From Gammaproteobacteria bacterium (GTDB lineage Bacteria; Pseudomonadota; Gammaproteobacteria; Steroidobacterales; GCA-2729495): a DNA stretch of 64,000 nucleotides. The DNA lies in the NCBI GenBank assembly GCA_021773815.1, contig JAJFJS010000065.1, forward strand, positions 1-64,000, read 5' to 3'. The notes beneath the pieces were generated by a model. That model was not told the origin of the DNA, ran no database searches, and worked only from the letters and a program-made list of their open reading frames with translations. Shown here piece after piece: positions 5,665-53,477 of this stretch; position 1 is the first letter of the stretch; every line of letters begins with the position of its first letter. A program made the translations under genes and the position numbers.

Positions 5665-5725
5665 ACTCAATTTCCGTGGGTTACCGAACGGCCGACGCGA
5701 GCACACCGGCCATGCATCGTAGCGA

Positions 5726-6535: not shown

Positions 6536-6579
6536 GATTCGAATCCTGTTATGGCGCCGTCACGCCGCCGGAACCCCGG

Positions 6580-8406: not shown

Positions 8407-8472
8407 TTACTGTTCCTCCCGCAGAAGCTACTCATTCCGTATCGCCCGCTCGATACAGCGGTGCCGGACGTA

Positions 8473-8542
8473 ACTTTATAACTGATTGGCACAAATATAG
8501 TAGTCGGAAGTGTCTTCCCCGTGCGCCAATACGTTATAAAGT
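8473..8542. promoter_or_regulatory. Long imperfect inverted repeat in divergent promoter region
   Basis: Left arm 8473-8493 ACTTTATAACTGATTGGCACA; right arm 8522-8542 TGCGCCAATACGTTATAAAGT (reverse complement ACTTTATAACGTATTGGCGCA). 18 of 21 positions match, 28-nt spacer, between divergent genes starting at 8406 (-) and 8590 (+). Confidence 0.6.
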
Positions 8543-8589
8543 GACGATCGGCACCGAATTCCGATTCCGGTACCGAAAAAGAACGAACC

Positions 8590-10112: not shown

Positions 10113-10121
10113 GCCTTACCA

Positions 10122-10655: not shown

Positions 10656-10792
10656 TCACGCAATACCCATGTCGAACGCCTGTTCGGCTTGCTAGCCGCG
10701 TGACGAATCGCGACGGCGCGGGGGTGCGAAGGAAATATCAATGTCGATAGGATATAAAGTGATCTCCGGCGCCGAGACCCAAAAGACCTGGC

Positions 10793-11560: not shown

Positions 11561-11619
11561 ATACTTCGCCGCCCCGGATCGATAACGCCCGAACCGGCGC
11601 ATTGGCGTAAAATCGGGCG

Positions 11620-13179: not shown

Positions 13180-13234
13180 CCGCATCTTTTCGGCACGGGT
13201 ATTCGAACGGCACGACAACGATCGAGGGGTATCG

Positions 13235-16343: not shown

Positions 16344-16347
16344 CAGG

Positions 16348-17265: not shown

Positions 17266-19442
17266 TCGATGCCGTGAAGCACTTTGACGTCGGCGCTGCG
17301 CCCCGGGCCATGGCAGACATCGCAGGTTTCGATGACCGTACCCCGGGATCCGGATAACAGCGTGCCGGCAGCCGTCTGCATCACGTCGAACGCACCCCCG
17401 TTGGCCTCCATGTGCGCAACCGCCGCCGCGCGGTCATGGCATCCCCAGCACGACGCCGCATTGGGCGTGATGTTGATGTCGTCCAGGGGATCGTCCAGAT
17501 CCGTGCCGGTGTCTGTCGTCATGGCCAGCGCAAAGGCGCCGACCGGGTAGTAGGTGCCGGGCCGGTGACAGCCCTCGCAATTGGCCAGTCTTCCCGGGTA
17601 GACGACCGCTCCGTAGGCAAGCGGCTCGCCGGAAAAGCCGTAGACGGTGAAGCCGTTCTCGCGAGCGGTTCCGGCATGGATGGCATGGACCATCGTTTTA
17701 AATTCAATGGTCTCCTCGTCCTTGCCGTCGGGCGCATTCGAACTGTCGGCTCCGCCGCGAACGCGGGCAGCGATATCCGTTGCGTCCGAATTATGGCAGG
17801 TCACGCACAGCTCGATATTGTCCGTGCGATTGGCGCCGTGCAGGCTCAACGACTGATGACAATCGTTGCACCGTGACAGCGCGACGATCTGACGGCGATC
17901 GACGGCGAGGCCGTCGGTGATCGCAAAGCTCCGCGACACGCCGGTGACGGGCACCGACAATCCGGCGACGCGCGCCCGGCCTTCCATCGCCGCGGTGCCG
18001 GAACCTGTCACGTTGCCCGGGATGGCGGTTGTCGACGTCACGGTAAACGTGCCGTCGCCGTTAGCGACCCCGCCGGTCAAAACATTCAGACGCAGGGGCT
18101 GGGCCGGAGCGCCGGTCGCCGACCCGCTGCCGCTGCCCGTATTGCTGATCTCCAGGTTTGTCCAGGCCACATCCACGGCCAGCCGGGCAGCGCCGGAGAA
18201 CACGGGATCGCTTTGCACGTTATAGGCCAGATCGCCGCGGGTCGGGTCGGTCACCGATACCGTGACGGCCGGAAAGCCGCCCGGCGCCGTATTGACGATA
18301 TCCAGAATATTGAATTTGAAAGCCTGTGCAAACTCCTGCGCGGCAATCACGTGCGACTCCGCCACACCGAAAGTCATGCCCGGCGCGTGGCAGAGCGTGC
18401 ACTCGCCGTTGCCGGCGGTGATGCCGTCCGCATGGTTCATGCCGGTCTCAAAATCTACGTCATCGTGACAGGACCCGCAGGCCTCTATCGTGGGCACACG
18501 AAACCAGTTTGCCGCGTCCGGCGTTGCCGGGTCGTTCTCATCGTGGCAATTCCGGCAATTGCGAATATCCTGCGGGTACACGACGCCAGAATAGTCGTGC
18601 TTGATGTCCCGGAAACCCCAGATCGCATACTCGCCGCCATCGACAACGCTCGGCAGGCCGGCGCCGCGATGGATCCGGTGCGTCATGACCGTCATGTCGA
18701 CGGTATTGCCGCTCTGGGCGTCGGCGGACCCGGGGTTGTGACAGGTCATGCAGTAGCGATTCTGAAACCGGGCGCCGCCGTGCAGGGCCAGCTTTTCATG
18801 ACAGCGGTTGCAGGTCGCATCGCTGACAATTTCACGCGTGAACAAATTCGTCGTGGCGCCCGTCGACGGCTGCCAGTCATAGGTCGGGTTCCCGATCGCG
18901 ACGAAACCGCGTATCTCAAATCCCGCCCGGTGGGTCAGCTCCGGCTGCCACGGGATGCCGGCAACGGCGGTGACGTCCGTCGCGTAGGTATAGACGTAGG
19001 TGCCGTCGCCGTTATCGACCAGCTGTCCCGCGCTGCCGCTTTCCGTCACCGCGTGCACCCGGTCCCCGGTGCCTGGTCCGATGCCGTTGGCCGCTTCTAT
19101 AGCGTTGATATAGCTCTGCCAATAGCTGGCGTTGCCGTCGGTTCCCGGCACCAGTCTGGCGATCGCAAAGCTGATGGAACCGGCCGGCAGCCCGATGACC
19201 GGACGACCCCCACCGTCGGTAAGCGTGAAGCGCATGACCGGCGGACTGGCGATCGTCACGCCGTCGATTGTTGCCGTCACCGCGGTCGCGGTGCCGATCG
19301 TCACCGGGGTCATGCCACCCGGCGGTCCCGGGGGGCCCGCCGGACCCGGAGCGCCGTCGTTCCCGTCGCAGCCCGTCAGCAACAGCAGTGCGAGCAGCAG
19401 AACGCCCAGCCGCGAACGAAGCATCGTCTGCAGAATCGGCAT
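17262..19442 (-). CDS. mtrC: OmcA/MtrC family outer-membrane decaheme lipoprotein cytochrome
   Basis: Lipobox LLLTGC then GxxGxx linker; 10 CXXCH motifs: CNRCH, CMTCH, CRNCH, CGSCH, CTLCH, CNDCH, CVTCH, CEGCH, CWGCH, CDVCH. Start approximate. Confidence 0.92.
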   Translation of the reverse strand: MPILQTMLRSRLGVLLLALLLLTGCDGNDGAPGPAGPPGPPGGMTPVTIGTATAVTATIDGVTIASPPVMRFTLTDGGGRPVIGLPAGSISFAIARLVPGTDGNASYWQSYINAIEAANGIGPGTGDRVHAVTESGSAGQLVDNGDGTYVYTYATDVTAVAGIPWQPELTHRAGFEIRGFVAIGNPTYDWQPSTGATTNLFTREIVSDATCNRCHEKLALHGGARFQNRYCMTCHNPGSADAQSGNTVDMTVMTHRIHRGAGLPSVVDGGEYAIWGFRDIKHDYSGVVYPQDIRNCRNCHDENDPATPDAANWFRVPTIEACGSCHDDVDFETGMNHADGITAGNGECTLCHAPGMTFGVAESHVIAAQEFAQAFKFNILDIVNTAPGGFPAVTVSVTDPTRGDLAYNVQSDPVFSGAARLAVDVAWTNLEISNTGSGSGSATGAPAQPLRLNVLTGGVANGDGTFTVTSTTAIPGNVTGSGTAAMEGRARVAGLSVPVTGVSRSFAITDGLAVDRRQIVALSRCNDCHQSLSLHGANRTDNIELCVTCHNSDATDIAARVRGGADSSNAPDGKDEETIEFKTMVHAIHAGTARENGFTVYGFSGEPLAYGAVVYPGRLANCEGCHRPGTYYPVGAFALAMTTDTGTDLDDPLDDINITPNAASCWGCHDRAAAVAHMEANGGAFDVMQTAAGTLLSGSRGTVIETCDVCHGPGRSADVKVLHGIE

Positions 19443-19470
19443 CACAACAACATCCGCCACGACGCAGTCA

Positions 19471-19734
19471 TCAGGCGCCGTCGAGCCAGGCGGCGATCGC
19501 GGCGATATCGTCATCCGTCAGACCGGCAAGTCCGGGCGGATGCGGCGCTTCGCCGGCCCGGATCGCTTGCATCTGCGCGGCAATGACGCTCACGCCCCGA
19601 CCCTTCAGACTGATAACCGCGTTGTGGCAACCGAGGCAGGCAGCGGCCTTGTCGGCGCCCGCAGGCGCATCAGTGGCCGTCGCCGTCCCGATGCCCAGGA
19701 AATTAATAATCGTCAGGATGATCAGCACCCGCAT
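19471..19734 (-). CDS. Small monoheme c-type cytochrome (c553-like)
   Basis: Signal peptide MRVLIILTIINFLGIGTATAT, one CXXCH (CLGCHN), C-terminal 'GLTDDDIAAIAAWLDGA'. Confidence 0.8.
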   Translation of the reverse strand: MRVLIILTIINFLGIGTATATDAPAGADKAAACLGCHNAVISLKGRGVSVIAAQMQAIRAGEAPHPPGLAGLTDDDIAAIAAWLDGA

Positions 19735-20354: not shown

Positions 20355-21581
20355 CTAACTGCCGAAATCATCGAAGAAAATCGCATCCTGCTCCACGCCC
20401 AATCCATCGAACATGTTCATTAGCGCCGCGATCATCATCGGCGGCCCGCACAGATAGAATTCGCAATCCTCCGGGGCCGCGTGGTCCTTTAGATAACGCT
20501 CGAACAAGACCTCGTGGATGAAGCCGGACAACCCCTGCCAGTGATCTTCCGGCAACGGATTGGACAACACGAGATGCCATTCGAAGTTCTCATGTTCTGC
20601 GGCGAGTTGCTCGAATTGCTGGACATAGAATGCCTCCCGCAGACTGCGGGCACCATACCAGAAACTGATTTTTCGCCGGCTGCCCAGACGCTTCAATTGA
20701 TCATAGATATGGGACCGCATGGGGGCCATCCCGGCGCCCCCACCGACAAAGATCATCTCGGCCGCGCCCTCCCGGGCGAAAAAAGCGCCGAAAGGGCCCG
20801 CCACCGGCACCTGGTCGCCGGGGCGCAGACCAAACAGATAAGAAGACACGATGCCGGTCGGTGTGCCCTCCGGCGCCTCGGGCGGCGGCGTGGCTATCCG
20901 GACATTCAGCATAACGATGTCGTTTTCTGCCGGATAATTGGCCATCGAATAGGCCCGCATGACGGGCGTCTCGGTGGCCGATTCCAGCCCGAAAAACCCG
21001 AAGCGCGACCAGTCGTCCCGATACTCGGCGGGAATATCGAAATCGGCATAGCGCAACCGGTATGGCGTGCACTCGATCTGGACATACCCGCCGGCACGAA
21101 AATCCATGACTTCTCCGGCCGGCAATTCCAGCACCAGCTCCTTGATAAACGTCGCGACGCTGCGATTGGAACGGACCGTGCATGCCCAGCGACGAACGCC
21201 GAAGATCGCTTCGGGCAGGCTAATGCGCAGGTTTTCGCTGACCGCCACCTGGCAGGCCAGGCGCTGGCCCTGGGCCGCTTCCCGCCGGGTGACGTGCGAG
21301 GCCTCGATGGGCAGCAGCGCGCCGCCGCCCTCCAATACCGTCACCCGACACTGGCCGCAGCTGCCGCCGCCGCCGCAGGCCGACGGGACGAACAATTGAT
21401 TGGCCGCAAGCGCGCCGAGGAGTTTGCCGCCGACCGGTACGATCAGATCCCGCTCATCATTGACGGTGATGGTCACGTTACCGCTGGGCACGAGGCGGGC
21501 CCGGAACGCGAGAATCAGCAACGCCAGCGCCAGTACGATGCCGGTAAACAGTCCCACGCCGAGGACGATTTCCTGCATCAC
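20355..21581 (-). CDS. nqrF: Na+-translocating NADH:quinone reductase subunit F
   Basis: 2Fe-2S ferredoxin motif [10 protein letters not shown]...LACQV; flavin motif [12 protein letters not shown]-binding [12 protein letters not shown]-terminal CGPPMMIAA. Confidence 0.96.
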
Positions 21582-22189
21582 TAAAACTCGATCCCGGCCA
21601 TGGCCATGAACGCCATGGACATGATGCCGGCGGTAATAAAGGTAATGCCAAGCCCCTGCAGACCGGCGGGAATGTCGCTGAACTTCATTTTTTCGCGCAG
21701 GCCGGCAAGCACGATGAGCGCCAGCGCCCAGCCCACGCCAACGCCGACGCCATAGGCGGCACTCTCGACGAAATCATAGTCTCGCTGCACCATGAACAAT
21801 GAGGCGCCGAGAATCGCGCAGTTCACCGTCAGCAACGGCAGGAAAATACCCAGCGACTGATGCAGCGCCGGAAAAAACCGGCTCAGCGCCATCTCCAGGA
21901 TCTGCACGATGGCGGCGATGACGCCGATATAGCTGATCAATCCCAGGTAACTGAAATCCAGATGCCCGAGGCCCGCCCACCCGAGCGCGCCCTCGCGCAG
22001 CAGGTACGTATAGATCAGATTATTGACGGGTACGGTAATTCCCTCGACCAGGATAACCGCCGCCCCGAGGCCGATGGCGGTCTTGACCTGCCGGGAAATC
22101 GCCAGGAACGTGCACATGCCCAGAAAGAAGGCCAGCGCGAGGTTCTCGACAAAGATGGCGCGAACGAATATGGCCAGCAGCTGATCCAT
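21581..22189 (-). CDS. nqrE: Na+-translocating NADH:quinone reductase subunit E
   Basis: [32 protein letters not shown]..., 202 aa polytopic. Start trimmed from the longer ORF-track call. Confidence 0.95.
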
Positions 22190-22848
22190 CAGTCGCCCCG
22201 CAACTCGTCCGCGGCCAGCGGCGCGAAGTCCGGCTGTTCCCGCTGCTCGGGTTTCCAGCTCCGAATGCCCCAGATGATGAAACCGATAATAAAGAACGCG
22301 CTGGGCGGCAGCAGCAGCATCGCGTTGGGCTCGAACCATCCGCCGTTGCTGACAGTCGGGAGGATTTCCGCACCCATCAAAGTCCCGGCGCCGAACAGTT
22401 CGCGGATGACGGCGACGGCGATCAGGACCAGGCTGTAACCCATGCCGTTGCCGATCCCGTCGAGAAAACTGATGCCGACCCTGTTGTGCGCCGCGAAGGC
22501 CTCTGCCCGGCCAAGCACGATGCAATTGGTAATGATCAGCCCCACGAAGACACTGAGCGTTTTCGCGGTTTCGGGCGCAAACGCCTGCAGCAGTTCGTCG
22601 ATGATGATGACGCCCGAGGCAATCACCGTCATCTGGACGATGATGCGCACCGATGCGGGCAGGTGCCGGCGCATCATGCTGATGACAACATTGGAATACG
22701 CCAGCACCGACGTGAGTGCGAGGCTCATGACCAGCGCCGAATACAGGGAATTGGTAATGGCCAGCGCCGAACAGATCCCGAGCACCTGCAGCGTCACGGG
22801 ATTCTCGTCAATCAGCGGGTTCAACAATGCATCGCGAGCCCGGATCAT
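22189..22848 (-). CDS. nqrD: Na+-translocating NADH:quinone reductase subunit D
   Basis: '[31 protein letters not shown]...[17 protein letters not shown]'. Confidence 0.95.
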
Positions 22849-23636
22849 CGTGTGTCACCTGCGGCAGAATAGTTGTCGAGGAACTTCGCAAAACCATGCG
22901 GACCGAACCAGTAACGCACGAGGTTCGTCACCGCATCCGCGGTCACCGTGGCGCCGGTCAGCCCGTCGACCTCGAAAGCCGCGTCCGGCGCAGCGGGATC
23001 GACGGCCGCTTTGGCGATCCGGAACCGCAATGTGTCCTGCGCGTCGTACAGCTTGCGACCGCGCCAGCGCGCCTGCCAGTTCGGGGCGAGGATCCGGTCG
23101 CCGATGCCGGCTGTTTCGCCTTGCTCGTGGAAAGTGATACCCGCAATCGTATTCAGGTCGCTTTCGAGGGCAAGAAAACCGGACAGCATCGACCACATGC
23201 CTTTGCCGTAGACCGGAAAGATGATTCTCTGCAGGCCGTCCGCATCCTCGACGACATACACCGTCACGAGCCGCGACCGCCGACCCAGTGCGGCGATATC
23301 CTGTGCGGCCGGAATCGGCACGCCAAATTCCGGGTCGGACGCGGCCTTGCGGGCATCGAAAGTATCCGGATTCACGTCATCATCGAAAACGCCGCGATCC
23401 AGGTCGACGAGCCGCGCATCCAGTCCCTGAAAAGCCATGACGATTTGCCGGTCCGGAACATCATCCGTCACCTCCAGCAGGCCGCTGACCCCGACGATAT
23501 GGCGGTTTCGTTCGAGGTCCCGGTAAGCGCGCTGAATCGGCTGCAGGGACACGGCCGTGACGGTAACGAGGATGGAACACACCAGCGCGGTTGCCGTCAC
23601 GACCATAATGGCTTTCAACGGGCTCTCATTATCCAT
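22845..23636 (-). CDS. nqrC: Na+-translocating NADH:quinone reductase subunit C
   Basis: Covalent FMN motif '[17 protein letters not shown]'; single N-terminal TM; 4-nt overlap with nqrD. Confidence 0.94.
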
Positions 23637-24849
23637 CGGCCGTCTCCGCCAGGCGCTTGCGCCGACGCCGAATGTTCAGTTCTACCATGACGAAGTCGAT
23701 GACCGGCGCAAACAGGCTGGCCAGCAAAATCGCGAACAAAATTCCCTCACCGTGAGAGGGATTTGCGATGCGGATTACGATGGCCAGCAGGCCCGTGAGC
23801 ACGCCAAAAATCCACCGTCCGGCATTCGTCATCGCACACGCGACCGGATCCGTCGCCAGGAACACGACACCAAAAGCCAATCCGCCGAGGACGAGGTGCC
23901 ACGTCCACGGAATACCGAAGATGGGGTTGCCGTTGCCGGCCCAGCCGTTGAACAGGAATACCGTTGCGATCATCCCTGTCAGCGCGCCGAGCATGACCCG
24001 CCACGACGCGGTATCGGTCATGACCAGCCAGGCCGCACCGATAAAACACCCCAGTACAGAGGTGGTGCCGATTGCACCGGGACGCATGCCGACGAACAGA
24101 TCACGCCACGTCAACCCGGCATCCAGCAGCGCGGCAATACCCCCGGCGCCGGCCAGTTGCAGCGGCAGCGCCGCGGTGAAACCGGGCACGGGTATCCAGG
24201 CGCCCTCACCGAATACCAGGTCGGGATAGGCAAACAACAGGAAAGTCACGCCCAGCACGGCGGGGTTGACCAGGTATCGGCCCGACCCGCCGAACACATG
24301 TTTGCCAACGACCATCCCGAACGTCATGCCGAGACCCACCTGGTACAGGGGTGCGCCGGCGGGCAGGATCAGCGCGAACAGCCAGGCGCAGGACAACAGC
24401 CCCTCGTCGACGGAGCTGCCACGCAGCTCCGCGAAGATCGCATCCCAGATTGAGCCGACTGCAAGCGCGACGAGGAACGCCGGCAAAAAATATAGCAACC
24501 CGTGCGCGACACAGGCGAACATATTCCCCGGGTCGTAGCCGATACCCAATCCGGTCAGGATGCCGCCGCGCCAGCCGGGCAACTGCGACAGATCCAGCGC
24601 GATCATGGCCAGGTTGGACTGGTGACCCAGGCTCCACATACCGATCAGCCAGCAGGGCAACGTTGCAATGACCAGGTTGTTGGCCATGCCCTGCACGCTG
24701 ACGACATCCCTGACGAACGGTGCGGACCGGTTCCGACCGGCAGACGCGTACAGAAACCGATCCAGCATCTGCAACCACGGCCGGAACCGTCGCAGCGGCC
24801 GGCCCTCGCCGGCGCGCATTTGCAGATCCTCGAGACGACGACGCAACAC
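23629..24849 (-). CDS. nqrB: Na+-translocating NADH:quinone reductase subunit B
   Basis: Polytopic; 'GMRPGAIGTTSVLGCFIGA' flavinylation-type region; between nqrA and nqrC. Confidence 0.95.
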   Translation of the reverse strand: MLRRRLEDLQMRAGEGRPLRRFRPWLQMLDRFLYASAGRNRSAPFVRDVVSVQGMANNLVIATLPCWLIGMWSLGHQSNLAMIALDLSQLPGWRGGILTGLGIGYDPGNMFACVAHGLLYFLPAFLVALAVGSIWDAIFAELRGSSVDEGLLSCAWLFALILPAGAPLYQVGLGMTFGMVVGKHVFGGSGRYLVNPAVLGVTFLLFAYPDLVFGEGAWIPVPGFTAALPLQLAGAGGIAALLDAGLTWRDLFVGMRPGAIGTTSVLGCFIGAAWLVMTDTASWRVMLGALTGMIATVFLFNGWAGNGNPIFGIPWTWHLVLGGLAFGVVFLATDPVACAMTNAGRWIFGVLTGLLAIVIRIANPSHGEGILFAILLASLFAPVIDFVMVELNIRRRRKRLAETADG

Positions 24850-28735: not shown

Positions 28736-29680
28736 CTAATTCGTCCGGCTCTTACCGAGTTCCGATGGCTTCTTCGGTGCAAGCACCAATAACAGAGCCA
28801 GCACCAGGAACGCGCCGAATACAACTGACATCTCAATCTTATAATCCCACGGATGTACCCAGATCTCGGTAAACAGGTTCCACTTTGTGCCTACCTCTAC
28901 ACTCACCCAGAAGATGTTGCCTACGGGAATCGCATAGCGCAGCGCGGTCGACGTCCGCTTGAACTTCAACAGGCGGGAAAAACAATACCCGCTCCAGACG
29001 AATGCCACGAATACTGATGCCATGTTGACAGCAAAGAACAAATCACCGGAACCGACCAGCCCGGGATCGAAGCACAGCAGATTCCATGCGTAGCAGAACC
29101 AGGTGACGAAAATCGTCTCCATGAACGTAATGATGGCGTAATTGCGATCCTGCGCTTTCTTCGTGCTGGGACCGAGCCCCTCCTGCATGCGCAATTTTTT
29201 CTGAAACCACAGGAACATGTTGCAGCGCGTATCTTTGTCGAACGTGTAGAAGCACAACATCAGCATCAGGACGCCCACGGTCGCGCCCATGATCATGTAC
29301 TCGGGAAACGTTCCGCTGACGCTGAGGCCGTCCGGCCCGTCCATGCGCGGCACCATGCCCCAGTTGCTGCGGCCGTAGAACATGTAGAAGAACTCGACCC
29401 AGGTCATCCAGATCATGAGCCCGGCAAAAAAGCCGATCCACGTCTGCAGGCTTTCATTTTTGGATTTGACGCCCTGCCAGAGCAGCACGATGGCCGCGGC
29501 GCCGATGAATATCGAAGCGACATAGGTCGTCTCATGACCCAGCCAGTTCTCGATCAGCACCATCAGCGTATGGCCGAGTGCGATCGCGAACAGCATCAGC
29601 ACGAAGGTGACGATACCGACGATCGGCGGCTTCCAGAGTTTGGACTTGCCGACGCCGCTGTTTAAGACCGCTTCCGTCAT
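28736..29680 (-). CDS. Eight-TM integral membrane protein of unknown function
   Basis: 314 aa, about 8 hydrophobic helices, conserved-looking loops ('GTFPEYMIMGATVG', 'IWVHPWDYKIEMS'). Confidence 0.7.
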   Translation of the reverse strand: MTEAVLNSGVGKSKLWKPPIVGIVTFVLMLFAIALGHTLMVLIENWLGHETTYVASIFIGAAAIVLLWQGVKSKNESLQTWIGFFAGLMIWMTWVEFFYMFYGRSNWGMVPRMDGPDGLSVSGTFPEYMIMGATVGVLMLMLCFYTFDKDTRCNMFLWFQKKLRMQEGLGPSTKKAQDRNYAIITFMETIFVTWFCYAWNLLCFDPGLVGSGDLFFAVNMASVFVAFVWSGYCFSRLLKFKRTSTALRYAIPVGNIFWVSVEVGTKWNLFTEIWVHPWDYKIEMSVVFGAFLVLALLLVLAPKKPSELGKSRTN

Positions 29681-31033: not shown

Positions 31034-31885
31034 CTACATGAAAACTGCCTTGTGATCCGTGATGAACTGCTTGAGTGGTATCGGGTCGCGACCGATCAGC
31101 TCTTTGAACGTATCGGTCGTATGATCGAGGCCGATCTCGGCAATCTCGCGGAACAGTTCACAGACGGCATTCAGGTGCCACGGCACGAGGATACCGGTCA
31201 TCTTCTCGCGAAACGTATCCATCGGCAGCGGGACGTACTCGACCTTTTCGCCGAGCACCGCGGAGAATCGGTCGGCGACGTCGTAAAACGTCAGCACCTC
31301 CGGGCCCGTGATCTCATAGCTCTGCCCGGCGTGCCCGTCGCCCGTCAACACCTCGGCGCAGACGGCGCCGATATCGCGCGCGTCGGCCATGCCGGTCGTG
31401 CCGTCGCCCATCGGCAGAAACAATTTACGCTGCGCCTTGATCGTCGCAGCGCTGGCGAGCAGGTTCTGCATGAAGAAATTCGGCTTGACCATCGTCCAGC
31501 CCAGACCCGATGCGCGGATATGCTCTTCGGCAGCCCAGTGCGCCTGCGGAATCGGCGTCTTTGCATCGGCAACCGCCTCCATCGACGACAGCTTGACGAG
31601 ATGTTTGACGCCGGCCGCGACGGCCAGATCCGTAAACTGCTTCTCGTGCGCCTGCTGCTGTTCGCCGTTTGGCAGCAACAGGAACGCCTTTTCGGCACCG
31701 GCGAGGCCCTTGCGGACCGTGTCGGCATTAGCAATATCGCCGACCACGAGTTCCACGCCGGCGGCCTTCAGATCCGCCGCTTTGGCCTCGTCGCGAACCA
31801 GCGCCCGCAGACTGGCGCCCTTGTTCAGCAGTTGTCTCACGGTTTCGCCGCCGATCTTGCCGGTTACGCCTGTCAGAAAAATCAT
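31034..31885 (-). CDS. NmrA-like NAD(P)-binding SDR protein
   Basis: 'MIFLTGVTGKIGGETVRQLLNKGASLRALVRDEAKA'; GGAGAG SD before ATG at 31885. Confidence 0.9.
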   Translation of the reverse strand: MIFLTGVTGKIGGETVRQLLNKGASLRALVRDEAKAADLKAAGVELVVGDIANADTVRKGLAGAEKAFLLLPNGEQQQAHEKQFTDLAVAAGVKHLVKLSSMEAVADAKTPIPQAHWAAEEHIRASGLGWTMVKPNFFMQNLLASAATIKAQRKLFLPMGDGTTGMADARDIGAVCAEVLTGDGHAGQSYEITGPEVLTFYDVADRFSAVLGEKVEYVPLPMDTFREKMTGILVPWHLNAVCELFREIAEIGLDHTTDTFKELIGRDPIPLKQFITDHKAVFM

Positions 31886-32020
31886 GTTGCTCTCCATCGT
31901 TGGTCTTTTTTTAGCCGTTCGCACCGGCGCGAATCGTCCGCCGCGGGAACGGCATTATAGGTGCCGGTCCGGCCCAACACGAACCAATCCCGCTGCTGCG
32001 AGACAGCGGGTGGCGCCGGC

Positions 32021-32869
32021 TCAGTCCCCCAGCGTCAGCGTGCCCAGGTAAACGCTTTGCTCGGCGACCTCGCAGGTCATCGCGAGCCGCCCGCCCGGAC
32101 CGGCTGCTTCCAGCTCGTAAGCGCCGCTGTTCGGCTCGAGTTTGTCGATCTTGAATTCGCCGAACGTGTCCGTCATCGCTCGCCCGACTTCGCTACCGTC
32201 TTTCTTCAGCACGACTTCGACATCCGCGGCGCACTCCTCGACGCCGTCGATCATCACAGCGACTGAGCCGGCGACAAAGCATTGCGTCATCAGGTACAGA
32301 TTCTTGTAATAGACACGAGGTTTCGTGCCGAGTTCGGGCTGGCGGACTTCCAGACCCTCCCGTTCGGCAATCCGCTGCATCTCCGCGTCCTCGACGTTGA
32401 CCGAACGGAAGACATTCGTCGGGCAGCACTGTTCGGCACGCGTCTTCGTCCAGCCGTCATCGAGCAGGTGCGCATCGAAAATCCACGCCTGCGGGATCTG
32501 CTTCTCCTCGTTCCAGGAGATCGCGCCGTACGGGCACGCGTCGACGATTTCTTTCTGCCCTTTCGACTTCACCGGATCGATGATGACGATACCGTCATCG
32601 CGCTTGCGCACGGCACCGTTTTTCGCCGCCTTGACGCACGGCGCGTCATCGCAGTGGTTGCACATGACCGGCATGAAGTGCGCATCGACGATCGGATAGC
32701 TACCGCGTTCGTTGCGCTCGATATCGAGCCAGTTATGGCCCATCGCCGGCTGCTCGGCCGCATAACCCGGAAAGTCATTGCCGGTATGTTCGTCCTTGAC
32801 GGCCAGAAAGCAGGCGCGGCAGTTATTGCAGCGCTCGATATCGACGATCATGTTCCATTTTGCACTCAT
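32021..32869 (-). CDS. 4Fe-4S ferredoxin-type subunit with C-terminal Cna-B/carboxypeptidase-regulatory-like domain (transhydroxylase small-subunit-like)
   Basis: CNNCRAC, CNHCDDAPC, ACPYG, QCCP motifs; C-terminal 'VAVMIDGVEECAADVEVVLKKDGSEVGRAMTDTFGEFKIDKLEPNSGAYELEA'. ATGA overlap with the upstream Mo-enzyme gene. Confidence 0.82.
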   Translation of the reverse strand: MSAKWNMIVDIERCNNCRACFLAVKDEHTGNDFPGYAAEQPAMGHNWLDIERNERGSYPIVDAHFMPVMCNHCDDAPCVKAAKNGAVRKRDDGIVIIDPVKSKGQKEIVDACPYGAISWNEEKQIPQAWIFDAHLLDDGWTKTRAEQCCPTNVFRSVNVEDAEMQRIAEREGLEVRQPELGTKPRVYYKNLYLMTQCFVAGSVAVMIDGVEECAADVEVVLKKDGSEVGRAMTDTFGEFKIDKLEPNSGAYELEAAGPGGRLAMTCEVAEQSVYLGTLTLGD

Positions 32870-35832
32870 TGCACTGCCTCCGCTTCTGCGGGCTGCCAGG
32901 TATCGGTGCCGGTCCACTTCTCGAGCTGGATCAGCGTCGAATTTGGCCGGATGCCGTGGCTTTTCGGGGTAATGGATTTACTCGGGTTCAGCATGTTGAT
33001 GCAGCCGCCCAGGTCGGTCGATTTGCCCGGCTCACCCGTCGGCCGGTACTCGGCCGACGCAGTGGACGCGCTGACGGTGCCCGGCCGCAACCGGTCTGTC
33101 ACCTGCGCCGCGCAGACCACCGAACCGCGTTTGTTCCAGAGCCGAACCAGGTCATCGTCCGCGATGCCGCGTTCCTCGGCGTCCTGCCGATTGATCCGGG
33201 CGACGAGGTAGTAATGGTCGCCGACCTTGATGCGGTGCTCGCGGATGTCGCGCAGGAAGCAGCCCTCGTCGTCGCCCATCACGTGGAACGGATAACGCGA
33301 ATGCGGCGACAGCAGCTTCAGCGGGTAGGCCGCCAATTCCGGGTCGTCCTCGGGTTTCTCGTAGGTCCGCATGTACTTGTTGACCGGCGGCCGCTCCGGG
33401 TCGTCGAAGCGCTTGAGCGTCGTGGGCACGAACTCGTATTTGCCCGACGGCGTCTGCAGACCCTCGCCGTAATTGGACACAAAGTCAGACGGCAGCGGAT
33501 ACGGTTCCGGCACGTCCTTCTTGCGGCCCTCGTAGAACCAGCGCATGCCCGTGGGCGCCCGCGAGCCTTCCGGTTCCGGCGGCACGACGAAATAGCCTTT
33601 CTTCAGGAATTTACGCCACGAGATGTGTTTGGCCATGTCCGATGATTCGAACGCGCGCTTGCACCAGTCGAGTTCCGTGTTGCCGCCTTCCGAAAAGACC
33701 GCCCCGAGGTCGAGCTTCTCGGCAATGGCCAGAAATATGTCGTAGTCGGATTTGGACTCGCCCCGCGGCTCGATGCACTTGTGCTGCAGCGATATTACGC
33801 GATGGTTGTTCATCGAATACATATGGTGCACGTAGCCGGGGCCGACGTTGTACCACTCGCCGATGTCCCATCTCTCAAACACCGTACAGGCCGGCAGGAT
33901 GACGTCGGCATAAGGCGTCTCGCCTTCCCACCAGACCGACTGGTTGACGACGAACTTCAGGCTCTCGTGCTGGTACATATTGACCCAGCGATTCGAATTC
34001 ACCATCGTGCCGAACGACGCGCTGCCGTATTTGTAGATCATCTCGACCGGCACGTGCCCGGGCGACGGATAGCCGAACGGGAAAAACTGCCCCTGCACGG
34101 AGTCGACGGCGGTCAGGTATCCCATCGCCTTGCCCTGCGTAATCGCCTCGGGCAGCCACACCCGCGGGATCGCCTGCTTGACCGTGCTCATCGTCACGAT
34201 GTGCGGCATGCGCTGATAGTTGTTGGTCGCGTTGGCGCTATAGGCCAGGTCACCGGACATGCTGCCCTCGGCATAACCGGGAAAATAGAAATTCATGTCA
34301 ACCGGCGCACCGAACTGCAGGTTACCGAAATTGGAACCCGGCCGGCCCATGCCCTGCATCGCGCCGAGAATCGTCATCATGCGCGCCCACTGCGAACCCG
34401 TTGGCCCGCGGCAGGCCCCGCCGACACCGCAACCCCAGCCGCCGGTGCCGAGGTAGGTCTTCTTGCGGCCCCATTCGCGGGCCAGCGCCCGGACTTCACG
34501 TGCCGGTACGCCGGTTTCGGCTTCCTGCCACTCGGGGGTCTTCGGCGTACCGTCATCCTCGCCGAGCACGTGTGCTTTCCACTCGTCAAAACCGGTCGTG
34601 CGTTTCTCGACAAATTCCTTGTCGTAGGTGTCCTCGGTAATCCAGACATGACAGATCGCCTGGGCCAGCGCCGCATCGGTACTCGGTCGCGGCGCAATCC
34701 ACTTGCCGCCGAGGTGTGCCGCCGTGTGGTTCATGTACGGGTCGATGTGCACCATCTTGATGCCCAGCTCCTTGGCCCAGCGGCGACGCTCGGTGCCCTC
34801 GAAACCGTAGCTCGCATCCGGGTCGCTCGACCAGAACACCATCATCTCGGCTTCCTTGAGACAGTCCTCGACCGTGCCGTACGGCTCGGATGCGCCCAGG
34901 CGCATACTGTTGCCCCAGTGGTGCATCGCGCCCCAGAACCAGCCTTCCCAGCTGTCCGGATTGTGCACCAGCTTGGTCACGCCGATCAGGTTCCAGAACC
35001 GGTTGAATGCGGACAGATAGTGACCCAGGTTGCCCCACTGATGGTGCGAGCCGTTGGCAACCGCGATCGCGCCGGGACCGACGGCCTTGCAACGCTTGAT
35101 CTCCTTCGAGACGATGTCGGCCGCTTCCTCCCAGCTGATCTCGACGAATTCGGATTTGCCGCGGTTCTGAATATTGCGATCACCGTCGGGATCGAAGTCG
35201 ACCCGTTTCATCGGCTTCAGGATCCGGTTCTTTGAATACACCATGGACTTCTGGCAGGCGCCGTGCGAGGCCAGCGTCGTGCGGCGCGGCGGCGTGAACT
35301 TTTTGCCGCGAGCCTCGATCGTGTAAGACCCGGCATCATCGTCGGCCAGGTCCATCGACGTCGTGCGCAGAATCTTGCCATCCTTGACGTAGACGAAGAT
35401 CGGCCCGCCATTCGTGCCGTTCGTATAGCGCGTCACGCCGTTGCCCATGTCGGTGCCGGCTGTCCACGTATACGATTCCATGCTCGCAACGATCTGCATG
35501 AACCAGACGACCAGGTCGTCCGGGCCCGACATCGTCAGCTTGAAGTTTTTCGCCGCGTCGATGCGTTCGAGCTGGTCGAACGGCGGCGTCAGGAAGCTCG
35601 CAGCGATCTTCGCATTCTTGAAGAAGATCGTGAAATCCGGGTTCTCATGTATACCGGCGCCGGAACTGATCTTGCCGTTTTTTACCTGTATCCAGCGGCC
35701 CTGGGGTTTATCCTTGAGCTGGAACTGGGCAATCGCATCGCGCTCTTTGAGGCGTTCGGCAAACTTCGGGTACACGGCCGCGCAGGTACGCATCGCCTGC
35801 GGGATACCCCAAAGAATCGTCGCTAAATACAT
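32866..35832 (-). CDS. Molybdopterin (DMSO reductase family) oxidoreductase, transhydroxylase large-subunit-like, with N-terminal SCP2-like domain
   Basis: About 988 aa. N-terminal 'KFAERLKERDAIAQFQLKDKPQGRWIQVKNGKISSGAGIHENPDFTIFFKNAKIAASFL' SCP2-like, then Mo-bis-MGD motifs ('VNQSVWWEGETPYADVILPACTVFERWDIGEW', 'GRPGSNFGNLQFG'). SD AGGAG before ATG at 35832. Confidence 0.85.
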   Translation of the reverse strand: MYLATILWGIPQAMRTCAAVYPKFAERLKERDAIAQFQLKDKPQGRWIQVKNGKISSGAGIHENPDFTIFFKNAKIAASFLTPPFDQLERIDAAKNFKLTMSGPDDLVVWFMQIVASMESYTWTAGTDMGNGVTRYTNGTNGGPIFVYVKDGKILRTTSMDLADDDAGSYTIEARGKKFTPPRRTTLASHGACQKSMVYSKNRILKPMKRVDFDPDGDRNIQNRGKSEFVEISWEEAADIVSKEIKRCKAVGPGAIAVANGSHHQWGNLGHYLSAFNRFWNLIGVTKLVHNPDSWEGWFWGAMHHWGNSMRLGASEPYGTVEDCLKEAEMMVFWSSDPDASYGFEGTERRRWAKELGIKMVHIDPYMNHTAAHLGGKWIAPRPSTDAALAQAICHVWITEDTYDKEFVEKRTTGFDEWKAHVLGEDDGTPKTPEWQEAETGVPAREVRALAREWGRKKTYLGTGGWGCGVGGACRGPTGSQWARMMTILGAMQGMGRPGSNFGNLQFGAPVDMNFYFPGYAEGSMSGDLAYSANATNNYQRMPHIVTMSTVKQAIPRVWLPEAITQGKAMGYLTAVDSVQGQFFPFGYPSPGHVPVEMIYKYGSASFGTMVNSNRWVNMYQHESLKFVVNQSVWWEGETPYADVILPACTVFERWDIGEWYNVGPGYVHHMYSMNNHRVISLQHKCIEPRGESKSDYDIFLAIAEKLDLGAVFSEGGNTELDWCKRAFESSDMAKHISWRKFLKKGYFVVPPEPEGSRAPTGMRWFYEGRKKDVPEPYPLPSDFVSNYGEGLQTPSGKYEFVPTTLKRFDDPERPPVNKYMRTYEKPEDDPELAAYPLKLLSPHSRYPFHVMGDDEGCFLRDIREHRIKVGDHYYLVARINRQDAEERGIADDDLVRLWNKRGSVVCAAQVTDRLRPGTVSASTASAEYRPTGEPGKSTDLGGCINMLNPSKSITPKSHGIRPNSTLIQLEKWTGTDTWQPAEAEAVQ

Positions 35833-36045: not shown

Positions 36046-37041
36046 CTAGACGACCTCGAACAACTCCTGCAGCGCGCCGCTGCCCGGGTTGCGGACGATC
36101 ATCGACAGGCACCGGCCGCGGCCCGGCAGGTCGATCTCTGTCGGCGCCGTGAATGTTTCCGCGCCGAGGTCGGCACAGGCCCCGGCAGTCTCATCGATGT
36201 CGTTGACCTCGAAGGATTGCGCCAGGTAACCGATATTGGGCGGCACGGCATCGGGCACCAGGTTCGGCACCTCATAATTCAGCGGCGTTGCCAGCGCGAT
36301 CTTGCCGTACTCGTGATCCCCCTGAACGATCACGCTCCGGGTCCGCGCGTCTGCGGACAGGCACAGCGCGCGATTCGTCTCCGCGCCCTCGAGTATGGAT
36401 TCGATGAACAAAGACATGTGTAGCGGGCCGTAATAGAAAGCCAGCGCCTTCTCCATATCGAGCACGCTGTGCGCCGTCGTGACGACCGACGTAAAGCCGG
36501 TCGGCGTCCGGCCATATTCATTGATGAACTGCACGATGTGCCCGATAATCGTTTTCGGATCTTCGGTCAGCAACTGGATCATGTTGATGACGACGCCGTC
36601 CGGCGCATCGAACGCCACTTCCAGCGTTTCACCAACCACCGGACCAAAATTATTACGGGCCGGCTCACTCCAGAAATGAAAGCCCTGCGACTTGAGCTGC
36701 TCGTAGTCCCTGGCGATGTCGCTGCTGTACAGGTTCAGATTGAACAACCCGGTCGCGCGGCGTACTTCCGGCGACCGGACGAGCTTGCGGTCGGGCGCAT
36801 CGAATTCCATCAGCTGAATACGGCCTACGGGGTCGGCGCCGTGCCCGAGGAATGCACACCGCGCTTCGGCGCCCGCGGGCAGTTGCCAGTAGCGTTCGAA
36901 GTCCGGCCCGCTCCACGTCCGTGTCTCGGCCACCTCGAGTCCCACGGTGCCGGCATAAAATTTGCGCGAGGCGTCGAGATTCTCGACGCCGATCACCGCC
37001 ACGCTTACCGGCGCGCCAGCTTCGTTTTCACTGCTGCTCAT
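36046..37041 (-). CDS. VOC (glyoxalase/extradiol dioxygenase fold) family protein, two-domain
   Basis: Repeated VOC pattern: 'VAVIGVENLDASRKFYAGTVGLEV' and 'VLDMEKALAFYYGPL'. Confidence 0.78.
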   Translation of the reverse strand: MSSSENEAGAPVSVAVIGVENLDASRKFYAGTVGLEVAETRTWSGPDFERYWQLPAGAEARCAFLGHGADPVGRIQLMEFDAPDRKLVRSPEVRRATGLFNLNLYSSDIARDYEQLKSQGFHFWSEPARNNFGPVVGETLEVAFDAPDGVVINMIQLLTEDPKTIIGHIVQFINEYGRTPTGFTSVVTTAHSVLDMEKALAFYYGPLHMSLFIESILEGAETNRALCLSADARTRSVIVQGDHEYGKIALATPLNYEVPNLVPDAVPPNIGYLAQSFEVNDIDETAGACADLGAETFTAPTEIDLPGRGRCLSMIVRNPGSGALQELFEVV

Positions 37042-38628: not shown

Positions 38629-41600
38629 ATGGCGTCGGCAATGGCAATTCCGATGATTCAATCCATCAACAAAGTACTCGTTTTGGCCATGCTGTACGCG
38701 ATTCCCGCACAGTCTGTTTCATTGACTGAAATCCAGGTCGATTCCGCGGGGCCGGTCTCACCATGGGGCAAGAGCACGGGTGACATAGACTCTGACGGTG
38801 ATCCGGATCTTCTTGTCGGAGGCAATGATTCAGGTGGACTCGTCTGGTACGAGAATCCTTCCTGGACAAAACATAGTGTGAGCCCTGACACCGGGTTTTC
38901 CACCGATCACGAGATCGCCGACATGGATGGTGATGGTGATCAAGACATCATAGCCCTGAATTCCAGCGATGGAATGAAGATATATTTTCAGGACGGGCCA
39001 ACCTGGACACCTTTCAGCGTGACCTCCTTAATACTTCATGATGTTGAAGTTAGCGATTTGGATCAGGATGGTGACTTTGATCTTGTCACCAGAAACCAAA
39101 ACAATGATACGGCTGTCTACATCTTTGAGCAGGTTAATCCTGGCTCATACAATCTTTACACCATTCAGGCTCAAGTCGGCGAAGGCCTGATAGTTTATGA
39201 CATAGATGAAGACGGTAGAGATGACATCATCATCAATAATCAATGGCTGGAAAATACCGGCACGATCAGCAGCTGGAACAGCCACACCTACACAACCACC
39301 TGGTCTGTCAGCAATACGTTTATTGGCATCGGGGACATCAACGGCGACGGCCGCACCGATATCGTGCTGACCCCGTCGGAAGCCGCAGGGGAATTTGCTC
39401 ACAATGCCTGGTTCGAGGCGCCGATAGACAGAACCGGCCTTTGGAGCGAGCATATTATCGAAACGAGTGTCGAAAGAGTCTTGCATAGCCTGCGCGTGGC
39501 TGATTTCGATCTCGACGGAGACATGGACATCGCCACCGGTGAAATGGCGCAGGGCTCAGATCCCGATGAAGGTTACTTGCTGATAAACGAGGATGGCGCC
39601 GGCACCACCTGGTCAAAAGAAGTATTTACGACATTGGGCACACACAGCTTCCGTGCATTTGACATGGACAACGACGGCGATGAAGAGATTTTTGGTGCCA
39701 ATTTCAACGGCAATGCACCTGTAAAACTCTTTGTCAACAACACGGCTCCTGCGGTTCCCTACGCAACAGATCAATGGCAACGATACATCATTGATTCCAC
39801 CGCTCAAATTAACGCTGCTTTTGTTTACCCTGCCGACATAGACGGCGATGGCATGAAAGATATCGTGTCAGGGCCGTATTGGTACAAGAATCCGGGCCCT
39901 CCGATCAGCCAGAACTGGTCACGTTTTGCTATCGGTACCGGCCTGAACGATGCGTCTGCAGTTTATGATTTCGACAAGGATGGCGATATAGACGTCCTGG
40001 GCACGACTGCCGTCGAAAATAGCGCGGATTTTGTCTGGGGGGAAAATGATGGTGCTGGAAATTTCTCCATTCACGCCAATATCCAGTCCGGACAGGGGGA
40101 CTTCCTGCAGGGCGTAAAGGTCGCGCACATCGTTCCTGGCGGGAACGGTCAGGTAGTTCTCTCGTGGCACAATCTAACCACTACCCAAATGCTTACTGTC
40201 CCCGCCGATCCCACGACAGATATCTGGGCCTGGTCGGTTCTTTCCAGTACGACTAATGGCGAACAAGTGGCTGTCGCTGATCTCGATCGGGACGGCGATC
40301 TGGATATTCATCTGGGTGAAAACTGGCTACGAAATGACGGCGCCAATTGGAGCTCACATCCGGCCGTTTCCGTGGGAGCCGGAAATACCGATCGGCTCGA
40401 ATTGACTGACGTTGACGGAGATGGTGATTTAGACGCGGTTATCGGCGTCGAGAATGGCACCCGATTACTGTGGGGCGAAAACCCCGGTCAATTGGCATCA
40501 AATCCCGATCAGCCGTGGGCGGAACATCTCATTTCTACCGCAACAAGGTTTTACAGCGTCGACACAGCCGACGTGGACCGCGACGGGGATCCGGATATTG
40601 TGGCCGGCGAGCACCTGGGAGACGGCAAGGTGTTTCTGTTCCTGAACGACGGCACAGGATCAAGTTGGGCCCTGCAGATGATTGACGACGGGCTGAGTGG
40701 ACTGGACCATCATATCGGCACGCGCTTTGTGGACCTGGATCTTGATCAGGACCTGGACATCATCTCTATCGGCTACACCAGTCAAAAATTGGTCATTTAT
40801 GAGAATCAGGCCGTTTCCCCAACTTCTATACGGGCCGCAGTTCCGCAATTAAATCCTCCCGGTGGATATTTCGCGAATTCCGTCACCGTCGCGATGAATA
40901 CCTCGACGCCGAATGCGCAGATTTTCTACACCCTGGACGGATCCGATCCGACGCAAGGCTCCCTGCTGTATTCCGCACCGATAAATCTTGCGCAGACGGC
41001 AACCATCAAAGCCAGAACATTTGACCCAAGCCAATCTCTGCAGCCCAGCAATATAGCTGTCGGAATTTACACCCATGTCGGCATGGGCGATGCCGACTTG
41101 ACGGCATACTGGTCATTTGACGACGGCAATACCACGGTCGCTGCCGATATCACCGGGAATGGATTCAATGGAACGTTAGTGGGCGCCGGCCCGTCGACCG
41201 ATATTCCTCAAAATGTGTTACCGGGTGGAAAATCACTGTCGTTCAGCAATAGTCGAATTGAATTGCCGGCCGAATTGGACATTTCCGGTTCGGAGATGAC
41301 CATCGTGGCCTGGGTTAAAGCCAGGAGTTTTACCGGACAGGACTGGGACGGCCGCATTCTTGCGAAAACCACCGGCACAGACTCTCAGGATCATTACTGG
41401 ATGCTAAGCACCATCGATTCCGGTGGAGCCAAACTGCGCTTTCGCCTGAAAACAGCCGGTGAAACCAGCACTCTTATCGGCAACAGTCCACTGCTCACAG
41501 ACATCTGGACCCATGTCGCTGCTGTCTACGACGGCGCTGAGATGAAAGTGTATGTCGATGGGGTACTCGATGGATCACAAGGAAAATCTGGTGCGCTATC

Positions 41601-42339
41601 GACTAACCCCCAGGTTCCGGTTGCAATCGGCGACAATTCCACCGGCGGCGTGCCGTGGGATGGAAATATCGATGAAGTCGCGATTTATTCGACCGCCCTT
41701 TCAGACGCCGAGATTCAGGATATTTACCAAAATGGTATTTCTCTAGATCGATTACCTGTGGTCAGTATCACGTCGCCTCTTGAAGGCGACATTTTCACTG
41801 ATACGGATTCAGTCTTGATTGCAGCCAGTGCAACTGGAACCAATGCTTCTATCGCCGAGGTCCGGTTTTACGAGGATGGAAATCTCATCCAATCGGATAC
41901 CGATTTCCCCTATGAAATAAATACTACGTTTGTTGCAGGGAGTCATACCCTGACAGCAGAATCCGTCGATAATCTTGGCGCAAAAACGCTCAGTTCCGCG
42001 GTGAATATTTCAGTTGAGGCCCCTTCAACCCTGTCGCTGACTCTTGGCTTGGCACCCCACATTTCGATTCTGAATCAACCATATTGGTGGCAGGGTCTCA
42101 CTGCCTCGGGTGGCGCCCCCCCATATTCATGGGAGATCGTCAGTGGCTCGATTCCATTGCCGATGACCCTGGATCCGGTCGGTGTCATCTCGGGCATACC
42201 AACGAATGCGGGCACGACGTTGTTTCAGATCCGGGTTACGGATTCAAATTCAGATTCAGTGACAACTGATTGGATGTGGATCACCGTGCGGACACCCGTC
42301 TATGTTTGTGGGAGCTGCCACAGCGACGATCGCCTCTAG
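38629..42339 (+). CDS. Large secreted VCBS/FG-GAP repeat protein with chitobiase-C-like, LamG-like and Ig-like domains
   Basis: 1236 aa; more than ten DxDxDGDxD repeats; 'IFYTLDGSDPTQGSLLYSAPINLAQTATIKARTF'; LamG 'AYWSFDDGNTTVAADITGNGFNGTLVG'; C-terminus ...VYVCGSCHSDDRL. Confidence 0.85.
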   Translation: MASAMAIPMIQSINKVLVLAMLYAIPAQSVSLTEIQVDSAGPVSPWGKSTGDIDSDGDPDLLVGGNDSGGLVWYENPSWTKHSVSPDTGFSTDHEIADMDGDGDQDIIALNSSDGMKIYFQDGPTWTPFSVTSLILHDVEVSDLDQDGDFDLVTRNQNNDTAVYIFEQVNPGSYNLYTIQAQVGEGLIVYDIDEDGRDDIIINNQWLENTGTISSWNSHTYTTTWSVSNTFIGIGDINGDGRTDIVLTPSEAAGEFAHNAWFEAPIDRTGLWSEHIIETSVERVLHSLRVADFDLDGDMDIATGEMAQGSDPDEGYLLINEDGAGTTWSKEVFTTLGTHSFRAFDMDNDGDEEIFGANFNGNAPVKLFVNNTAPAVPYATDQWQRYIIDSTAQINAAFVYPADIDGDGMKDIVSGPYWYKNPGPPISQNWSRFAIGTGLNDASAVYDFDKDGDIDVLGTTAVENSADFVWGENDGAGNFSIHANIQSGQGDFLQGVKVAHIVPGGNGQVVLSWHNLTTTQMLTVPADPTTDIWAWSVLSSTTNGEQVAVADLDRDGDLDIHLGENWLRNDGANWSSHPAVSVGAGNTDRLELTDVDGDGDLDAVIGVENGTRLLWGENPGQLASNPDQPWAEHLISTATRFYSVDTADVDRDGDPDIVAGEHLGDGKVFLFLNDGTGSSWALQMIDDGLSGLDHHIGTRFVDLDLDQDLDIISIGYTSQKLVIYENQAVSPTSIRAAVPQLNPPGGYFANSVTVAMNTSTPNAQIFYTLDGSDPTQGSLLYSAPINLAQTATIKARTFDPSQSLQPSNIAVGIYTHVGMGDADLTAYWSFDDGNTTVAADITGNGFNGTLVGAGPSTDIPQNVLPGGKSLSFSNSRIELPAELDISGSEMTIVAWVKARSFTGQDWDGRILAKTTGTDSQDHYWMLSTIDSGGAKLRFRLKTAGETSTLIGNSPLLTDIWTHVAAVYDGAEMKVYVDGVLDGSQGKSGALSTNPQVPVAIGDNSTGGVPWDGNIDEVAIYSTALSDAEIQDIYQNGISLDRLPVVSITSPLEGDIFTDTDSVLIAASATGTNASIAEVRFYEDGNLIQSDTDFPYEINTTFVAGSHTLTAESVDNLGAKTLSSAVNISVEAPSTLSLTLGLAPHISILNQPYWWQGLTASGGAPPYSWEIVSGSIPLPMTLDPVGVISGIPTNAGTTLFQIRVTDSNSDSVTTDWMWITVRTPVYVCGSCHSDDRL

Positions 42340-50036: not shown

Positions 50037-51038
50037 TCAAGGTCGATCCCTGTTGAAGCGAACCGCTTCCGCCGCATCCAGTGCCTCATCAAGCTGTGGC
50101 CGGGGGGCTCCGTGATCACGATAGGCATTCAGCGTCGCCATCGGCACAGTCGTTACCGTATCGCGACCAATCAATGCCTCTATGTATTTGACATCACTGA
50201 ACGCCGGATTCTTTGTGCCCGTACTCGCCCATAGCAGTCGTTGCTTCATCGCTCGATGCCCGACCAGGGAATGCCAACACGATTGCTCAAGGCTCGCATT
50301 GAAGGCCCGCCGGGCGAGTTTGGCGCTCGCGACGGCCGCCTTTCTATGCAACCCGATACCCGCGGGTGTGGGAGTCTCATCAAGCTTTTCATCTACAAGA
50401 GAATCGATCCGACTGACAAAAAAACTGGCGACCGAGGCAATCTGTTCTATTTCAAGATCCAGAACCAATCGATCTTCCAAGCCCTGCCAATAGGCTTCGA
50501 TTACGGCCCTGTATCGTGCGACGCCGAAGAGTAGCGTTACATTCACATTGAGGCCGGCAAAAATGAGCTGCCGGATGGCCGGCGGTCCCGCCTTGGTCGC
50601 GGGTATCTTGATCATCGCATTCGTCCGATCGATGGCGCGCCAAAGGCGCCGCGCCTCAATTACCGTCTCCGCAGTGTTATGGGCAAGGTGAGGTGACACC
50701 TCCAAACTTACGAAACCGTCCACCCCGTTTGAAAGCTCATATGTTTCGCGTAACACATCAGCAGCATGCTGAATGTCTTCGATGACCAGTCGCTCGTAGA
50801 TATCAGCCACGCCATCGCCGGAACGTGCACGTTCGTCGATAATCGCATCATAGTATCGAGACTCTGCGATCGCTCGCTCGAAAATTGCCGGATTGGACGT
50901 CACGCCACTCACTTCATCATCGATAATCAGACGCGCCAGGGTTCCATCCTCGAGGTATTCGCGACAAATATCGTCCAGCCAAATGCTTTGGCCGAGCCTT
51001 GCTAACGACTGCAAGTGGCTATTTGGCATCGCGTTCAT
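50037..51038 (-). CDS. tal: Transaldolase
   Basis: '[42 protein letters not shown]', '[13 protein letters not shown]', '[24 protein letters not shown]' (ORF reads NVNVTLLFG). N-terminus overlaps the phosphoketolase stop. Confidence 0.92.
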
Positions 51039-53439: not shown

Positions 53440-53477
53440 TGCTGTATCTCTTATTCAGTTCCGGTGCACACCTGAAT

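Follow-up and report, generated by a model that had tools for sequence, protein, structure and literature searches.

Why would a molybdenum enzyme of the transhydroxylase type, whose kind shifts hydroxyl groups from one plant-type phenol to another, carry a lipid-carrier domain at its N terminus, and what could such a domain do for it? The question is raised by two genes within a 64,000-nt stretch of DNA from a Gammaproteobacteria bacterium (Steroidobacterales; GCA-2729495), i.e. positions 1-64,000 of contig JAJFJS010000065.1 in assembly GCA_021773815.1, hereafter called the window. The large, catalytic subunit is encoded on the reverse strand at 32866..35832 (988 aa), with an AGGAG ribosome-binding site ahead of the ATG at 35832 and a stop codon at 32866-32868; an earlier reading made from the sequence alone (the sequence-only reading) had the right coordinates. 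Its N-terminal SCP2 domain (residues 1 to ~125, 35458..35832, assigned by Foldseek, Pfam and AlphaFold) is followed by a molybdenum-bis-molybdopterin guanine dinucleotide (Mo-bis-MGD) part of the transhydroxylase (AthL/PgtL) type (residues 133-988, 32866..35436, assigned by Pfam, homology and aligned residues). Directly after it, on the same strand, lies the gene of the cognate Fe-S subunit (32021..32869), whose start at 32869 overlaps the large-subunit stop by ATGA; homology and cysteine alignment identify its product as a small [4Fe-4S] subunit, AthS-like, with a C-terminal barrel domain. We think it probable that the two proteins together make up a transhydroxylase-type polyphenol (trans)hydroxylase, one as the catalytic and the other as the Fe-S subunit, in which the SCP2 domain binds or presents the substrate.

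The N-terminal domain is at the edge of what sequence comparison can detect. The Pfam SCP2 model matched the whole large subunit at a sub-threshold E-value of 0.086 and residues 1-136 alone at 0.004; the curated cut-off of PF02036 was not reached (17.9 bits vs 21.3), and the best relative gave an E-value of 0.0019. Among 39 relatives (E up to 1) an SCP2 match was found in 12 and a match to the SCP2-like family Alkyl_sulf_C in 6, i.e. in 18 altogether. A sequence profile of the N-terminal domain found no match among the PDB sequences even at E 10, so the SCP2 claim had to be carried by fold comparison. An AlphaFold model of residues 1-136, built from 34 sequences, had a predicted local distance difference test score (pLDDT) of 83 and a predicted template modelling score (pTM) of 0.74. 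When this model was compared with the whole PDB using the Foldseek program, the first 37 matches were all SCP2-fold proteins (E 2e-6 to 3e-3), among them 33 out of 33 at E <= 0.001, and the first different fold appeared only at E 5e-3. The matches included Archaeoglobus AF1534, UbiJ, the SCP2 domain of the SdsA1/Pisa1 alkylsulfatase, and rabbit and human SCP2. A full-length model (27 sequences) reached a pLDDT of only 61 and was used solely to check the overall match to 4v4c, the Pelobacter acidigallici AthL/AthS structure; the helix-strand order of its N-terminal part was unchanged. The predicted structure confirms an SCP2 fold for residues 1 to ~125, as the sequence-only reading had supposed.

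The fusion is not a product of assembly, a point that the sequence-only reading had put up for checking. The full-length form is present in about 70 other assemblies, in which the junction near 35.45 kb (~35.43-35.46 kb) is intact, and relatives spanning residues 1 to ~984 are found in the great majority of 78 GTDB loci, belonging to Gammaproteobacteria, Alphaproteobacteria, Acidobacteriota, Deltaproteobacteria and others. Plasmids of Paraburkholderia, Burkholderia, Cupriavidus, Ensifer, Sinorhizobium, Rhizobium and Salipiger carry relatives with 54-57% identity. A close match was seen in 35 of the 36 genomes sampled from the window's own genus and family (three as contig fragments) and in 3 of 23 genomes from the rest of its order. 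Measured against close relatives, the SCP2 part had dN/dS values of 0.05-0.11 and the catalytic part values of 0.055-0.073; the ratios are rough, as synonymous sites are near saturation, and they indicate that both parts are under purifying selection.

The catalytic part was recognised by Pfam as PF21423 (AhtL-like domain 1, residues 143-197, E 1.3e-24), Molybdopterin and Molydop_binding, and the same scan gave no Molybdop_Fe4S4 match in the large subunit. Residues 133-200 contain one cysteine only, which means that the FS0 motif is absent from this subunit. The best solved relative is 4v4c_A, with a phmmer score of 907 bits over residues 133-976, whereas DMSO reductase scored 218 bits and acetylene hydratase (2e7z) 54. 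Foldseek of the full model led to the same ranking, with ~48% identity and an E-value of 5.8e-70 for 4v4c as against 7.7e-24 for acetylene hydratase. In other words, the transhydroxylase-type subunit without a CxxC 4Fe-4S motif that had been read from the sequence is what the searches find as well. Pelobacter S175, which we take to be the Mo ligand, and H144, D174, W176 and Y404, which presumably line the active site, correspond to S294, H263, D293, W295 and Y520 of the window protein. Across 98 aligned large subunits H144, S175, W176 and Y404 (Pelobacter numbering) are invariant (98/98), and D174 is present in 92. By its homology, its retained residues and the missing FS0 motif, the catalytic part can be assigned, within the DMSO reductase family, to the transhydroxylase/resorcinol hydroxylase subfamily. 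The positions that presumably form the pocket, i.e. Pelobacter 152, 153, 354, 468 and 557, have changed from Y, R, W, F and C to H, Y, V, T and V, the replacement of R153 being Y272 of the window protein.

The history of the fusion was followed in a tree built from 56 rows of the catalytic part only, with branch support from the Shimodaira-Hasegawa-like approximate likelihood ratio test (SH-aLRT). A single branch with 100% SH-aLRT support separates SCP2-fused from SCP2-free enzymes. The sole exception, locus L053, still contains the SCP2 coding DNA: its large-subunit gene (147-3104) is interrupted within the SCP2 part by an in-frame TAG (codon 51), beyond which the frame stays open, meaning either a sequencing error or a natural loss of the domain. 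As judged from these sequences, the tree shows that the SCP2 domain was gained once. Position 153 follows the same division, being R or K in 13/13 true SCP2-free rows and Y, W or H in 80/80 fused rows; the other five rows scored as SCP2-free are four contig-edge fragments and L053. Because the gain of SCP2 and the change at position 153 lie on the same branch, they amount to one historical coincidence and not to 93 independent ones. We note that four SCP2-fused large subunits (L165, L164, L166 and L175) are encoded in a single Rhodospirillaceae genome (G460), and that in L165 (region 12063-13436, reverse strand) the copy adjoins what reads as a UbiD-type decarboxylase.

The small subunit shows a second departure. 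Among solved structures the Pelobacter small subunit is the nearest to it, C-terminal barrel included. The 12 cluster cysteines of the latter, grouped by the usual ferredoxin CxxCxxCxxxC rule, fall into {13,16,19,149}, {23,126,129,145} and {68,71,76,109}. The window protein keeps 8 of the 12, and C23, C126, C129 and C145 are replaced by V, W, D and A. Counted over 97 small subunits, the ligand pattern is 4/0/4 in 71, 4/4/4 in 22 and 4/1/4 in 4. The 4/4/4 set consists of Pelobacter, the Deltaproteobacterial loci and a Bathyarchaeal locus, and in all others the second cluster is gone. A basal Rhodospirillaceae relative has C-W-D-A at the four places, which looks like a halfway state of the kind that stepwise loss predicts. 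An all-or-none loss of four scattered cysteines is hard to explain other than by the loss of one of the three [4Fe-4S] clusters, and by analogy with NarH-like subunits this would be the middle one. Haem-copper oxidase genes over the cut-off were present in 7/7 cluster-lost genomes vs 1/8 cluster-intact ones (15 genomes, the cluster-lost ones being assigned by their own or near relatives' small subunits). Loss of the cluster in oxygen-breathing bacteria suggests that the enzyme works without an electron wire.

The firmest indication of a pathway comes from anaerobic Deltaproteobacteria. In loci L093, L096 and L152 the genes of the SCP2-fused large subunit and its small subunit come last in a same-strand series, after those of a cyclase (PF04199), a cupin, a short-chain dehydrogenase/reductase (SDR), a 3HCDH protein and a beta-keto acid cleavage enzyme (BKACE), in this order, and the pathway genes of L147 and L149 are the same. 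The closest solved relative of the SDR is 5g4k/5g4l, which we take to be the Clostridium phloroglucinol reductase. The gene sets of all five loci match a characterised phloroglucinol cluster (PMC10470551). A Glu of the lysine-pathway enzyme is Trp in TAL (triacetate lyase; PMC10470551), and the L093 BKACE has Trp at this position. SCP2-free paralogues occur in a like phloroglucinol cluster (L150) and directly beside a fused enzyme in L153, where SCP2-free and SCP2-fused large subunits, each with a small subunit, stand in tandem next to a 3HCDH gene (5193-11669, reverse strand) and thus offer a ready-made comparison of both forms. Phloroglucinol catabolism, with and without SCP2, is the sole firm context of the fused relatives, and it lends no support to the steroid or terpenoid substrate considered by the sequence-only reading. 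The other part of that idea, a hydrophobic aromatic, fared better: a hydrophobic or alkylated phenol is a possible substrate. Plasmid relatives lie near genes for VOC (vicinal oxygen chelate), fumarylacetoacetase-family, acyl-CoA synthetase, OmpW or FadL/TodX proteins. The FadL/TodX and OmpW types are outer-membrane channels that carry hydrophobic compounds; they are encoded close to the relatives found on plasmids of Salipiger, Burkholderia, Paraburkholderia and Ensifer, and this setting hints at a hydrophobic substrate for the plasmid-borne enzymes.

The surroundings of the gene pair in the window's own family are of a different kind. Upstream and in the same direction lies a two-module VOC-superfamily protein (36046..37041, reverse strand) with an orthologous neighbour in 16 other loci, i.e. 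17 loci in all. Downstream is an NmrA-like NAD(P)-binding protein (31034..31924, reverse strand); NmrA-like neighbours occur in ~11 related loci, and a functional link to the Mo enzyme is uncertain. Together with a TorD/NarJ-type chaperone and the Mo-cofactor genes MoeA, MoaE, MoaA, MobA and MobB, these neighbours support a working Mo enzyme but no particular substrate. The VOC protein was also considered as an extradiol dioxygenase and rejected, as it has no PDB relative at E 0.1 and the usual His is missing at both module starts among the invariant residues. A 314-aa membrane protein at 28736-29680 (reverse strand), with no Pfam match above the cut-off, has a homologue near the SCP2-transhydroxylase of L038 (18916-19851).

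We propose the following mechanism. The products of 35832->32866 and 32869->32021 would be the subunits of a Mo enzyme of the pyrogallol-phloroglucinol transhydroxylase type, in which a hydroxyl group of a phenol ring is added or moved at a Mo held by Ser294, with the help of His263, Asp293 and Tyr520. The SCP2 domain would most likely take up either the phenolic substrate or the co-substrate that donates the hydroxyl, or else a greasy substituent on it, and hand the bound compound to the Mo site, much as UbiJ/UbiT serve aromatic hydroxylases; the enzyme may thus handle greasier phenols than its known relative. With one cluster gone, the Fe-S subunit could hardly carry electrons to an outside partner, and since electrons cannot readily leave through it, the reaction is probably a redox-neutral hydroxyl transfer or isomerisation. 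Several observations weigh against this proposal. The five altered pocket positions mean that the substrate may differ from that of Pelobacter, and the SCP2-free paralogues in the same kind of cluster make the domain dispensable for the phloroglucinol pathway. In the window genome we found no BKACE and no intradiol dioxygenase, and the one cyclase is only 25% identical to that of L093, so that no downstream phenol pathway could be recognised there; a phloroglucinol route in this genome was rejected because of the missing BKACE and the only distantly related cyclase. A more far-reaching version, i.e. a separate aerobic branch of transhydroxylases with a near-core gene in oxygen-respiring bacteria, in which SCP2 supplies the Mo-bis-MGD site of an O2-independent, redox-neutral ring (trans)hydroxylase with a hydrophobic phenol or a lipid-linked aromatic, and in which the missing middle cluster has cut the Fe-S wire, is a tentative idea that we put forward with considerable doubt.

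The fused branch might instead be of the resorcinol/alpha-resorcylate hydroxylase (RhL) type, hydroxylating phenols with water-derived oxygen and sending electrons out via the Fe-S subunit. RhL is another member of this Ser-ligated family (PMC10100899), and the fused Deltaproteobacterial enzymes retain all 12 cluster cysteines. However, the small subunits of the window clade lack one complete cluster, and the fused Deltaproteobacterial enzyme is found in the phloroglucinol set and not with a recognised hydroxyhydroquinone route, which makes this explanation unlikely. We give about the same low standing to a purely structural SCP2 domain without a ligand of its own, which would cap or stabilise the large subunit or aid its contact with the small subunit. 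Such a role agrees with the SCP2-free paralogues in the same type of gene cluster and with the weaker conservation of the domain (mean major-residue frequency 0.65 vs 0.79 in the catalytic part). The single gain, the long retention, the purifying selection and the matching change at position 153 speak against it, but these points all rest on one evolutionary event.

A still less probable alternative is that the enzyme of the window clade modifies a lipid-linked aromatic, such as a quinone precursor or an alkylresorcinol, whose tail is held by SCP2 in the manner of UbiJ/UbiT. The SCP2 domain of UbiJ binds hydrophobic ubiquinone intermediates, and in Zymomonas mobilis ubiT (SCP2) is fused to ubiU, the gene of an O2-independent hydroxylase (PMC6747719), so there is a precedent, in another enzyme type, for joining SCP2 to an aromatic hydroxylase that works without O2. 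UbiJ-SCP2 is among the best fold matches, the pocket residues are altered, and the gene is nearly universal in its family (35/36 genomes). On the other hand, no quinone gene was seen next door, and the numbers of Ubi hydroxylases above the cut-off vary (1, 3, 1, 2, 2) among enzyme-carrying genomes; as they follow no regular pattern, replacement of a missing Ubi hydroxylase was discarded. Finally, a fusion made by assembly or a chance likeness to SCP2, for which the sub-threshold Pfam score could be cited, has practically no probability left after the ~70 independent assemblies and completed plasmids and the all-SCP2 Foldseek matches refuted it.

The window contains further genes that we list for completeness. 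At 14256-19514 (reverse strand) an MtrB/PioB-type outer-membrane porin (E 1.4e-150) and two adjoining open reading frames with 10 CxxCH motifs each resemble a conduit of the MtrCAB type, made of porin and cytochromes and serving extracellular electron transfer, and a five-CxxCH cytochrome followed by a Tll0287-like protein (8590-10112, forward strand) adjoins these genes. NqrF-like (Fer2, FAD and NAD domains) and NQR2/RnfD-domain genes at 20355-24849 (reverse strand) are part of a Na+-NQR set. Phosphoketolase is followed by acetate kinase at 51019-54620 (reverse strand), and 38629-42339 (forward strand) encodes a protein of 1236 aa that combines FG-GAP repeats, Ig-like domains and a LamG domain and has the C-terminal end VCGSCHSDDRL.

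No net electron transfer is required for the reaction of the Pelobacter transhydroxylase, and yet the enzyme has three Fe-S clusters. Since the ligands of exactly one cluster have been removed in dozens of lineages, with those of the other two retained, the role of the clusters can be tested by comparing natural enzymes. The enzyme family has so far been discussed for anaerobes, and the SCP2 branch is often found in Gammaproteobacteria, Alphaproteobacteria and Acidobacteriota that respire oxygen; given this and its near-universal presence in one Gammaproteobacterial family, an aromatic transformation that has so far escaped recognition may be widespread across fresh water, soil and sea.

In the literature searched we found no description of a Mo-bis-MGD catalytic subunit bearing a lipid-carrier domain, nor of the cluster-loss variant of the small subunit. 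The window enzyme is a member of a known family with an apparently new domain architecture and a cluster-loss variant, and is not categorically new. It shares with Pelobacter AthL/AthS both subunits, the domain order, the absence of FS0, the Ser ligand, the His, Asp and Tyr residues, the small-subunit barrel and the ~48% large-subunit identity. The Pelobacter enzyme has no SCP2, Arg at 153 and three [4Fe-4S] clusters, whereas the window enzyme has SCP2, Tyr at 153, a changed pocket and ligands for only two clusters, i.e. it has neither the 12 small-subunit cysteines nor the pocket Y152, R153, W354, F468 and C557 of AthLS proper. RhL/RhS of Azoarcus anaerobius is of the same Ser-ligated transhydroxylase/resorcinol hydroxylase subfamily (PMC10100899). 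Acetylene hydratase belongs to the same Mo/W-bis-MGD superfamily and is much further away than 4v4c_A (54 vs 907 bits). The SdsA1-type alkylsulfatases, which are among the top fold matches, likewise join an SCP2-fold domain to a catalytic metalloenzyme domain; in these zinc hydrolases of alkyl sulfates the SCP2-like domain is C-terminal. UbiJ and UbiT resemble the window protein in that their SCP2 fold serves aromatic ring hydroxylases, but the enzymes served are flavin-dependent or are Fe-S proteins of the U32 type, and not Mo enzymes.

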